In this document: positions 16,784 through 61,443 of the stretch, in pieces
Numbering within the stretch: position 1 is the first letter of the stretch
Layout: each line of letters opens with the position of its first letter
NCBI GenBank assembly: GCA_960531495.1
Contig: OY482850.1
Location: forward strand, 9,705,053 to 9,769,052
Source of the DNA: Zeus faber
Lineage: Eukaryota > Chordata > Actinopteri > Zeiformes > Zeidae
Length of the DNA: 64,000 nt
Reading direction: 5' to 3'
Position numbers and translations under genes: made by a program
The notes under the pieces: generated by a model
The model's database searches: none
Seen by the model: the letters and a program-made list of their open reading frames with translations, nothing else
What the model was told of the DNA's origin: nothing

Positions 16784-17107
16784 GGAGCCCCCAAATTACC
16801 TGGTGTGAAAGGTGTTGTGGCAGTTCCACCTGAACACGCCACCCAAGTGCCGTTTTCAGGGCCCGCCAGCACAGAGACACAGACAACAATGGTTTGTAGA
16901 CATCAGGTTATTATAGACAGGAGGCTAGGTGGAATTAGCCAGGAGCAGATCGAACATGTCCTGGCTCCTATCCTGAGTGTGTGTGAGGATAGGGTTTTTA
17001 ACCTGTTGCCCGTTAGCCCAACCGATGAGCACCAGGTATGCAGCCACTTTGACCAAATCACCTAGATCCAGGTCAGGTGTGGCTGCTCAAACCATCCCAT
17101 CCCCACA
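16784..17107 (-). mobile_element. LTR of the small TRIM-like family, inverted copy
   Basis: Read on the minus strand, 17107-16816 is an LTR of the family found at 60085-61438. It shares the GGATGGGATGG head, GGTTGGGCTAACG, the ACACACTCAG and GGAGC..GGACATGTTC blocks, CTGGCTAATTCCACC, GTCTCTGTGCTGG, and the terminal CTGCCACA. About 17 bases further (16801-16784) lies a degenerate primer-binding-like GGGGGCTCC. It is longer than its relatives (292 against 242 bp) because of an extra stretch near 17020-17080. I see no partner LTR nearby. Confidence 0.7.
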
Positions 17108-17559
17108 TCACAGGTGTCTTACAGCATTACTAAACACAATGAGGTTCCACCCACACACAAATAAACAGGTAATGAAATCCGTTCAATGGACGCACACAAA
17201 ATTAGAATCACAAACTGACAAAAATAACTTGTGTTTGGACTACCTCCTGCCCCTCTTGATCATATCTACCAAGCTCTCCGTGTCAAAACCTTCCATTCCT
17301 TCAATGATGGCCTCTTTGTTTTCGGTATCGGTGTCGGCACTACTGGGTTAAAGTTTTCGTTACTACGCCCTTGTGCCAGTTAAACTCGCTTTCCAAGTTG
17401 CCTGGGTAACAAAAAAAAGAAAACGGATTTGCTTTTCTTTATAAGCCCGTTCTTTATCAGTGAGAGCGATTAGACAGATGCTCACGGACAGTTGTTTTTC
17501 TAACAAATCACCGGCGTTCAATTGGCAAATGTTGTTAAAGGGAAAACATGTGTGTGTGT
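17108..17559. other. Anonymous DNA, no gene seen
   Basis: No open frame or repeat that I can support. Confidence 0.35.
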
Positions 17560-30666: not shown

Positions 30667-30832
30667 AGAGCTGGTCGTCTAGTAATCTAAAGGGTGCTGT
30701 TTCGATCCCAGGCTCCTCGATCCTTGAGCAAGACACTTAACCCCTAATTGCTCCTGATGGCTGCGTCCATCGGTGTTTGAATAATTGTAAGTCGCTTTGG
30801 ATAAAAGCGTCTGCTAAATGTAATGTAATTAT
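30667..30832 (+). repeat. V-SINE-like SINE (DANA/HE1-type tail)
   Basis: AGCTGGTCGTCTAGTAATC leads to a B-box GTTTCGATCCC at about 30698-30708. Then come CCTTGAGCAAGACACTTAAC and the highly characteristic tail AGTCGCTTTGGATAAAAGCG followed by TCTGCTAAATG and a TAATGTAA end. The tail is shared with V-SINE elements of fish (established knowledge). The first ~15 bp of the tRNA-like head are missing, replaced by the preceding (TTATA)n tract. Confidence 0.8.
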
Positions 30833-60079: not shown

Positions 60080-60084
60080 TTTGT

Positions 60085-60326
60085 TGTGGTGGATGGGATG
60101 GCTTGAGCAGCCACACCTGATGCTTGTTGTTTGGGCTAATGAGCATCAGGTTTAAAAACTCCGTCCAGACACTCAGTCAGGAGAGGAGCCCTGACATGTT
60201 CCATTAGCTCCTTGGTAATGCCGTCTAGCCTCAGCGCTACAATAAACTGGTGTTATCAACCCCCTGTCTTCTGTGCCGGAGGTCCCTGGAGCCACCCAAG
60301 TGGCGTGTGGTGGCGAAACTGCCACA
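60085..60326 (+). mobile_element. 5' LTR of TRIM-like element
   Basis: 242 bp from TGTGGTGGATGGGATGG to AACTGCCACA, with AATAAA at 60241-60246. The end at CCACA is supported by the inverted copy starting at the same point (61309). Confidence 0.75.
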
Positions 60327-60345
60327 GTCTGATTCTGATTCTGAG

Positions 60346-60363
60346 TGGCACCCAATGTGGGGC
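60346..60363 (+). promoter_or_regulatory. Primer-binding site
   Basis: TGGCACCCAATGTGGGGC closely resembles the lysine-tRNA type binding site TGGCGCCCAACGTGGGGC known from retroelements. It lies 19 bp after the LTR. The intervening bases contain two TGATTC units. Confidence 0.7.
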
Positions 60364-60399
60364 TCCAAAGACGCCCTGGAGCCACTAGCAGTTCAACGG

Positions 60400-60690
60400 G
60401 CGACCCCAACACCAACCCTCTCCCGACTGGCAGCAGCAGCAGCACCTAGGGGGTCCGGCGGAGCACTAGGGGAGAAGCAGCGCAGCAACCATTACAGGTA
60501 ACCGCTGGCAACTAGCTTCTCTGTCCCAACAGCCACCGCCAGGACTATCCAGCAGCCCAGAAGCCAGGCCAACTCTCTCTCCACTGGCAGCGGCAGCACC
60601 TTGGGGGTCCAGTGGAGGACATGGGGAGAAGCAGCTCAGCAACCACCATAGGTAACCGCTGGCGGATAGCTTCTCTGCCCTGCAGCCATC
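60400..60690. repeat. Internal ~165-bp direct duplication
   Basis: 60405-60528 and 60570-60683 share ACTGGCAGC.GCAGCACCT, GGGGTCC.G.GGAG, GGGGAGAAGCAGC.CAGCAAC and AGGTAACCGCTGGC in the same order. Confidence 0.7.
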
Positions 60691-61110
60691 GCCGGGACCA
60701 TCCAGCTTTCAGGCCACCCCTCCAAGCAGCCCCCGCAGCAGCCCCGTCCAGCTACTCCGTGACCCGCCAGCGCAGCAGCCCCAGGCCCCACACTCCGGAA
60801 GGGAGGAGAGGCAGTCTGTTGGCGCCCTGGGGGAAGGAGGCCGGTCGACCGTGCTGCTCTGGGGAACCCAGGTCCTCTAGGAGGGGATCTGTTCACTTTT
60901 TTTGGACATTTGTTAGTATAAGGTATGGGAACCCTTTTTCAGAGTCCGGTGTTTTTATTAATTTAAGGTATAGGAGCTAAGGGGCAGAATCTGTATTTTT
61001 AGGTATAGTAACCCTGGGTCAGAATCTGTTTTAAGCATTTCTTTTCATTTTTGTTCTCTGCTTGGTGGGGGGAGTAGGCTCGGGCCAGGATTTCTTCCTG
61101 GCCTCAGTTT

Positions 61111-61123
61111 GGTGTTGGGGGTA
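61111..61123 (+). promoter_or_regulatory. Polypurine-tract-like sequence
   Basis: GGTGTTGGGGGTA directly before the 3' LTR. It is not all-purine, so the assignment rests on position. Confidence 0.5.
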
Positions 61124-61308
61124 TGTGGTGGATGGGATGGCTTGAGCAGCCACACCCAATGCTCGTTGGTTGGGCTAACGAGCATCGGGTTTAAGAACCC
61201 CGTCCACACACTCAGTCAGGAGAGGAGCCCTGTCATGACATGTTCCATCCGCTCCTGGCTAATTCCACCTTGTCTCATCTCTACAATAAACTGGTGTTAT
61301 CAGGCCCC
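61124..61308 (+). mobile_element. 3' LTR of TRIM-like element, truncated
   Basis: Matches 60085-60268 (TGTGGTGGATGGGATGG through AATAAACTGGTGTTATCA) and then ends in GGCCCC, directly against the inverted LTR. Confidence 0.75.
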
Positions 61309-61438
61309 TGTGGCAGTTTCGCCACCACACGGACCTCCAGCACAGAGACACATACGACAGGGGGTTGATAAACCTGATACTCGTTAGCCCAATCAGCGAG
61401 CATCGAGTGTGGCTGCTCAAGCCATCCCATCCACCACA
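61309..61438 (-). mobile_element. Inverted LTR with internal deletion
   Basis: On the minus strand it runs from TGTGGTGGATGGGATGG to AACTGCCACA, that is both true LTR ends. The middle is deleted from CAGGTTTA directly to TCAACCCCC. Its outer end CCACCACA is followed by the TTTGT duplication. Confidence 0.8.
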
Positions 61439-61443
61439 TTTGT

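Follow-up and report, generated by a model that had tools for sequence, protein, structure and literature searches.

Facing LTR pairs with outward U3 starts in a short LTR retrotransposon family of Zeus faber, a probable outcome of aberrant plus-strand priming

Structure of the element in the window

The window (the whole stretch of 64,000 nt analyzed here, located on contig C6 of the 803-Mb genome) carries at 60085-61438 an LTR element whose parts are listed in Table 1, together with the related loci found elsewhere in the same genome. A preliminary description had assigned U3 starts of the same LTR to both outer termini of this element, with TTTGT on each side, which was confirmed by sequence comparison. 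The element comprises a complete 5' LTR (L1), a PBS-like 18-mer, an interior, a 3' LTR (L2) and an inverted LTR (L3), all enclosed by a single pair of target site duplications (TSDs).

Table 1. Coordinates of the window element, of a solo LTR of the same family and of the facing LTR pairs at other loci (contig coordinates for the pairs).
Feature	Position	Strand	Remarks
Left TSD	60080..60084	none	TTTGT
5' LTR (L1)	60085..60326	+	complete, 242 nt, TGTGGTGG...CTGCCACA
PBS-like 18-mer	60346..60363	+	TGGCACCCAATGTGGGGC
Interior	60364..61123	+	two frames without Pfam match; holds imperfect tandem duplication
12-mer abutting 3' LTR	61112..61123	+	GTGTTGGGGGTA; same 12-mer or variant precedes LTR in L007, L009, L021, L028
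3' LTR (L2)	61124..61308	+	U3 and R only; ends 18 nt past AATAAA
Inverted LTR (L3)	61309..61438	-	both termini kept; lacks 101 and 19 nt internally
Right TSD	61439..61443	none	TTTGT
Solo LTR, same family	16816..17112	-	TSD GGTGT at 16811-16815 and 17113-17117; reference for ordinary insertion
C16 pair	C16:8174031-8174511		palindrome query; outer flanks GTGAG/GTGAG
C1a pair	C1:19811930-19812380		palindrome query; outer flanks TATGG/TATGG
C8 pair	C8:86753-87203		palindrome query; outer flanks GTCAC/GTCAC
C1b pair	C1:57167572-57167985		palindrome query; outer flanks CATAC/CACAC (4/5)
C1c pair	C1:40993254-40993600		palindrome query; outer flanks AATAT/AATAT
C4 pair	C4:22444742-22445144		palindrome query
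C5 pair (L077)	C5:27407306-27408215		palindrome query; outer flanks CTACA/CTACA
C13 pair	C13:20884484-20884792		palindrome query
C7 pair	C7:10245558-10245869		palindrome query
C22 pair	C22:4362142-4362534		palindrome query
C14 pair (L003)	C14:5199441-5199839		outer flanks GTATG/TTATG (4/5)
C12 pair (L025)	C12:3869745-3870212		outer flanks ATGAA/ATAAA (4/5)
C20 pair (L039)	C20:15070553-15070838		
C4b pair (L006/L043)	C4b:32895231-32895564		

The two LTRs that follow the interior are both incomplete. L2 is identical to L1 at 161 of 183 aligned columns, and its R/U5 border was placed by AATAAA alone. In comparison with L1, L3 misses 101 nt, from the TATA box to the poly(A) signal, and another 19 nt in U5. 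The junction lies where it had been placed before, with the forward LTR ending at 61308 and the inverted one running from 61309, and the CCCCTGT microhomology is present; the TGT at 61309-61311 is compatible with both L2 and L3.

The PBS-like 18-mer, putatively of the tRNA-Lys type, is separated from L1 by 19 nt that include a TCTGAT repeat; in the other PBS-bearing copies whose downstream sequence was examined this gap is 1 nt. Two frames of the interior gave no Pfam match at E<=1. The tandem duplication within it (60412-60553 and 60569-60706; 82% over 142 columns) has matches in other family members, and the 12-mer abutting L2 would occupy the expected place of the plus-strand primer. A 24-base U3 pattern (at most three mismatches) occurs at four places in the window, compared with none in 100 shuffles. 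Within the U3 of L2, at 61154-61190, a 14-nt inverted repeat (93%) surrounds a 9-nt loop. The inverted relative reported earlier at 16784-17107 does belong to the same family, but its bounds had to be corrected (Table 1), and it is an ordinary solo LTR with its own GGTGT duplication. The window also contains the 3' element of a UnaL2 LINE (30774-30827; Rfam RF00436, 66.6 bits).

The LTR family in the genome

L1 was used as a query against the genome, and the best 40 of 3251 candidates were scored. The LTRs of this family have the termini TGTGG...CCACA and a TSD of 5 bp; such TG...CA termini and a fixed-length TSD are those of an LTR retrotransposon of the integrase type. Full 5/5 duplications flank single LTRs at seven of the 30 loci examined (L002, L004, L008, L011, L012, L015, and L024), and those lacking one include L018 (3/5), L020, and L022 (both 2/5). 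Around many of the other 23 LTRs no TSD is expected, since each is one end of an element or of a pair.

Seven ordinary elements were measured. They span 908-1239 bp (one is under 1 kb), with 397-734 nt between LTRs that stand in direct orientation and are 87.5-94.7% identical. Regarding the outer flanks of four such elements, L005 has CTGTG (5/5) and L030 ATTAG/ATTAC (4/5), and the ends of L033 and L036 are incomplete. The base following the LTR is G or C, then TGG, and at least three types of PBS-like 18-mer occur in the family; the third PBS-like 18-mer, TGGTGGAGAATGCRGGCR, follows the LTR in L049, L077, L078, and L079. On contig C1, L009, L010, L014, and L016 (G000 C1:19326830, 19265398, 19235107, and 19296310, respectively) have nearly the same right flank and a spacing of about 30-31 kb; this array looks like a tandem segmental duplication.

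Recurrence of facing LTR pairs

An inverted LTR stretch lies within 100 nt at five of the 39 loci of the L1-query sample (the window copy L001, L003, L006, L025, and L039), where L005 and L019 are taken as one locus, four loci are near-identical C1 copies, and the partner stretch of L006 is a mere 37 nt long and that of L039 22 nt. It should be stressed that this sample was ranked by similarity to L1, and such ranking may favour two-armed loci. L005 contains one pair facing inward, with 147 nt between the LTRs, i.e., beyond the 100-nt cut.

The search of the genome assembly with 60085-60326, which had been suggested as a check, was extended by whole-palindrome queries, for which the best 40 of 5599, of 3814, and of 3255 candidates were scored. 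It brought at least 14 more loci, so that 15 loci in total (named below by contig, as in Table 1) carry two facing LTRs with the U3 starts directed outward. Across 59 LTR-bearing loci, neighbouring LTR pairs within 100 nt comprise 14 outward, no inward, and six same-strand pairs, where nine of the 14 outward pairs came from palindrome queries; the C5 pair is absent from the 14 because its LTRs stand further apart than 100 nt.

Outer flanks of the pairs

Both U3 starts are kept in 10 of the 15 loci, and the outer 5-bp flanks match at four or more positions in nine of these 10, six of them (including the window copy) perfectly and three at 4/5. Such a match was reached by none of 90 swapped pairs and by seven of 200 displaced pairs; in an earlier swap control, run on 11 loci (C4 and C4b among them, C5 left out), two of 110 reached it. 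The tenth locus, C20, has the flanks TCACC/CACCC, which agree at 2/5 with the strict boundary and at 4/5 only if the boundary is shifted by one base. When the full LTR of a pair is treated as an insertion of its own, its flanks agree at only one to three of five positions in the eight pairs measured. An outer end is lost or truncated in C4, C4b, C13, C7, and C22, and these have no TSD; in C4b and C7 the shorter arm ends near AATAAA, at nearly the same LTR position (L043:3232 and L079:59). It is thus well supported that the facing-LTR units were inserted whole.

Sequences between the facing LTRs

A PBS is normally found only beside the 5' LTR. In 10 of the 15 loci, the LTR end is directly followed, towards the middle of the pair, by at least seven PBS bases: all 18 come after CCACA in eight of them (C16, C8, C1b, C1c, C5, C4b, C13, and C7), 10 in C12, and up to seven in C22. 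In C14, C1a, and C4 the LTR end is followed just by G or C and TGG, a match that carries little weight at this length and that, in C14 and C1a, might be part of the inverted arm. There is no clear PBS between the arms in C20 and in the window copy. The presence of the PBS inside the pairs points therefore to products of reverse transcription and not to rearranged solo LTRs. In C8, C16, C1c, C13, C7, and C4b the PBS leads into TCCG..., which is complementary to U5, and further into inverted U5/R. The C5 pair has an interior, and its turn falls about 480 nt beyond the LTR end instead of at the PBS.

Pairing between U5 and the leader was assessed in two ways. RNA folding of four copies predicted pairing of U5 with the 3' half of the PBS and the leader in L005 (z -4.4) and L027 (z -3.9), while this stem is weak or absent in L030 (z -1.3) and in the window copy (z -0.06). 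The longest exact complementary word between U5 and leader has 15 nt in L077 and 12 nt in L006, which both belong to the class, whereas its length is 7-10 nt in seven other copies; for the latter, the word length was reached by 4 (L033), 10 (L027), 25 (L005), 47 (L036), 78 (window copy), 102 (L029), and 125 (L030) of 500 shuffles. Hence, the word beats shuffles at the 5% level in just two of these seven copies, with a third at the line, and the inverted repeat between U5 and leader is clear in some copies only. One palindrome, at L050:1501-1951, is 91% identical to its own reverse complement over its full length; it passes from R directly to an inverted U5 end, its centre is a U5 hairpin, and it may be a double fold-back.

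These observations bear directly on two other explanations of the facing pairs. In the first, an inverted LTR would have inserted into the 3' LTR, and a subsequent deletion of about 70 bp at CCACA, a motif common to the U3 end of the inserted LTR and the U5 end of the host LTR, would have left the inverted LTR beside the original right TSD. This sequence of events yields the exact structure of the window element, outer TTTGT included, and is viable for the window copy alone, where the terminus of L3 at the join is a clean LTR end and two small deletions are visible within L3. As an account of the class, it has to be set against the PBS or leader bases retained inside the pair at most other loci, and against the shorter arms of these loci, which wholly or partly lack the U5 part that an inserted LTR would have. 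In addition, all five pairs of the L1-query sample face outward, and the same sequence of events would be needed many times. We therefore consider nested insertion with deletion unlikely.

The second explanation is autointegration by the integrase, in which the processed U5 end of one cDNA would attack the LTR of another, and the resulting inverted U3/U3 join would then be integrated. The join at the CA terminus of the LTR in the window copy, the join near it in C20, and the varying start positions of the shorter arms are in keeping with such a reaction. Strand transfer of a processed end would, however, exclude bases beyond CA, and 10 of the 15 pairs hold at least seven bases there that read as PBS or leader; furthermore, among the 14 other loci, interior sequence between the arms is seen only in C5. 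Autointegration thus appears improbable, even more so than a nested insertion.

Relationships of the arms

The arms were compared in an alignment of 71 sequences, the number left after removal of loci retrieved twice, of nearly identical copies on C1, and of short fragments. Among 66 others, the arms of C14 are mutually nearest, narrowly (0.952 vs. 0.951), and so are those of C1a (0.949 vs. 0.948). For the two arms of five other loci, the numbers of sequences closer than the partner arm are 0 and 11 of 67 in C12, 0 and 3 of 65 in C16, and, each time of 66, 40 and 21 in C8, 10 and 23 in C1b, and 1 and 12 in C4. Rare bases common to both arms are few: one in C14 (in 0 of 34 others; 1 of 67 in the 71-sequence alignment) and three in C12 (in 0, 1, and 2 of 33 others), where a single rare shared site passes in the 71-sequence alignment (4 of 67). 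In the latter alignment there are one in C1a, one in C8, two in C1b, four in C4, and none in C16. With regard to the window copy, L3 is nearest to L1, marginally (0.910 vs. 0.908 for L012), and other copies resemble L2 more than L1 does; no rare sites are common to L3 and L1/L2, the informative part of L3 being deleted.

The arms are 0.88-0.955 identical in the nine loci with at least 50 aligned arm bases; in loci with short alignments, the values are 46/47 for C7 and 13/16 for C13. As these identities overlap those of the LTR pairs of ordinary elements, the palindrome-forming events look spread over the life of the family. It is highly improbable that the pairs arose beside ordinary LTRs through a later rearrangement of the chromosome or through an artefact of the assembly (an inverted duplication or a missed sequencing adaptor). 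Short inverted duplications do arise in genomes and in long-read assemblies, but they would not break off precisely at the U3 start and carry a 5-bp duplication on the outside, as nine of 10 loci do, and arm differences of 4.5-12% in the nine loci with at least 50 aligned arm bases are too great for an artefact.

A single ancestral palindrome that amplified was also considered and is not favoured, as the centres differ by locus and the arms of C14 and of C1a each group within their own locus (narrowly). The exact join of L025, TGGCGCCCAAYGTGGCAG, has four matches in the genome at no more than one mismatch, vs. two for the reversed control; of these, L025 is the palindrome itself, L046 looks unrelated, and L045 and L047 were compared by matched letters only.

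Proposed origin of the facing LTR pairs

Taking together the structure of the loci, their outer TSDs, the PBS or leader bases inside the pairs and the recurrence in the genome, we consider it likely that the window element belongs to a class of aberrant insertions with two U3 ends, formed by fold-back or cross-priming of the plus strand and inserted by the integrase. For the window copy, the route would be that of the class of loci to which it belongs. What the window alone could not reveal is that the structure recurs and that most of the other pairs enclose PBS or leader bases.

The proposed course of events is as follows. During second-strand synthesis, a plus strand consisting of U3-R-U5-PBS, often extended (after transfer) into the leader, would leave the normal path, and its 3' end would pair with complementary U5/R, which could belong to the same strand (fold-back) or to another plus-sense strand (cross-priming), possibly aided by the inverted repeats between U5 and PBS/leader. 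Copying would then proceed through R and U3 and run off exactly at the U3 start, because the plus strand begins there; pairing of the 3' end with U5 and this run-off would give two U3 termini without further assumptions. If the template were plus-strand strong-stop DNA, a bare LTR-PBS-LTR' palindrome would result, and a template that extends beyond U3 on its upstream side, be it a complete plus strand or the 3' end of genomic RNA, would give LTR-interior-LTR(U3-R)-LTR', as in the window. The 3' end of genomic RNA carries only U3-R, and the end of L2 near the end of the genomic RNA (after R) would fit a priming event whose template was RNA or a longer plus strand. Since both ends of the product are U3 termini, the integrase would accept it and insert it with the usual 5-bp duplication of the family; in vitro, integrases are able to join two ends of the same kind. 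Later deletions may have shortened the centre and the arms.

The preliminary description envisaged a snap-back template switch followed by integration. Both insertion as a unit and an origin by template switching find support in the class of loci; snap-back is now only one of two possible forms. Priming between two plus strands would lead directly to a two-ended duplex, and fold-back of a single strand would produce a hairpin that needs opening, so cross-priming explains the two-ended duplex more simply.

A broader reading is that U3/U3 palindromes and inverted-LTR elements are a second, regular product of reverse transcription in this family, with the U5-PBS/leader repeats acting in self-priming and the germ-line integrase accepting two U3 ends. 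The share of insertions involved would then be appreciable; the figure of five of 39 loci comes from one similarity-ranked sample that includes the query, and we offer this reading tentatively, leaning slightly against it.

Comparison with known systems

TRIM elements have two LTRs in direct orientation, a length of about 1 kb or less, and no coding capacity. The window copy resembles them in its short LTRs (about 240-260 nt in the family), PBS-like 18-mer, short interior (two frames lacking a coding match), and 5-bp TSD, but it differs, as do at least 14 other loci, in having an inverted LTR with U3 outward. The earlier label "TRIM-like" is thus loosely fair for the ordinary members of the family, seven of which (908-1239 bp) have direct terminal LTRs; the window copy ends in an inverted LTR.

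DIRS-like elements encode a tyrosine recombinase and produce no TSD; in the window element a TSD is present, and two frames have no Pfam match. In products of LTR autointegration (Ty1, HIV-1), an LTR end is likewise joined to LTR sequence in inverted order; most of the pairs described here, in contrast, include PBS or leader bases, and they lie in the chromosome between outer TSDs. Inverted LTRs flank DIRS-1 as well (PMC5633606), a likeness to the window element that is offset by the TTTGT duplication and by the origin of the inverted form here as a by-product of a family with direct LTRs. The minus-strand strong-stop DNA of HIV-1 undergoes TAR-dependent self-priming, which is lowered by nucleocapsid (PMC4668388). 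There, too, an inverted repeat allows the growing strand to fold back and to serve as its own template; the difference is that in our case the plus strand is proposed, and the product is genomic, with TSDs. Among open-access titles and abstract openings, no description of integrated LTR palindromes with outer TSDs was found.

Significance

If the proposed origin holds, an error of reverse transcription that is usually deemed a dead end has left chromosomal fossils, whose joins mark the points at which nascent strands turned. These loci would be natural evidence that concerted integration needs no more than two U3 ends. They would also be a source of LTR palindromes, which combine two inward-facing promoters with fragile inverted repeats and which annotation tools could misfile as nested solo LTRs. 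For this family, the analysis points to an occasional folding back during the copying step, with the mirror-image product nevertheless being inserted into the genome.
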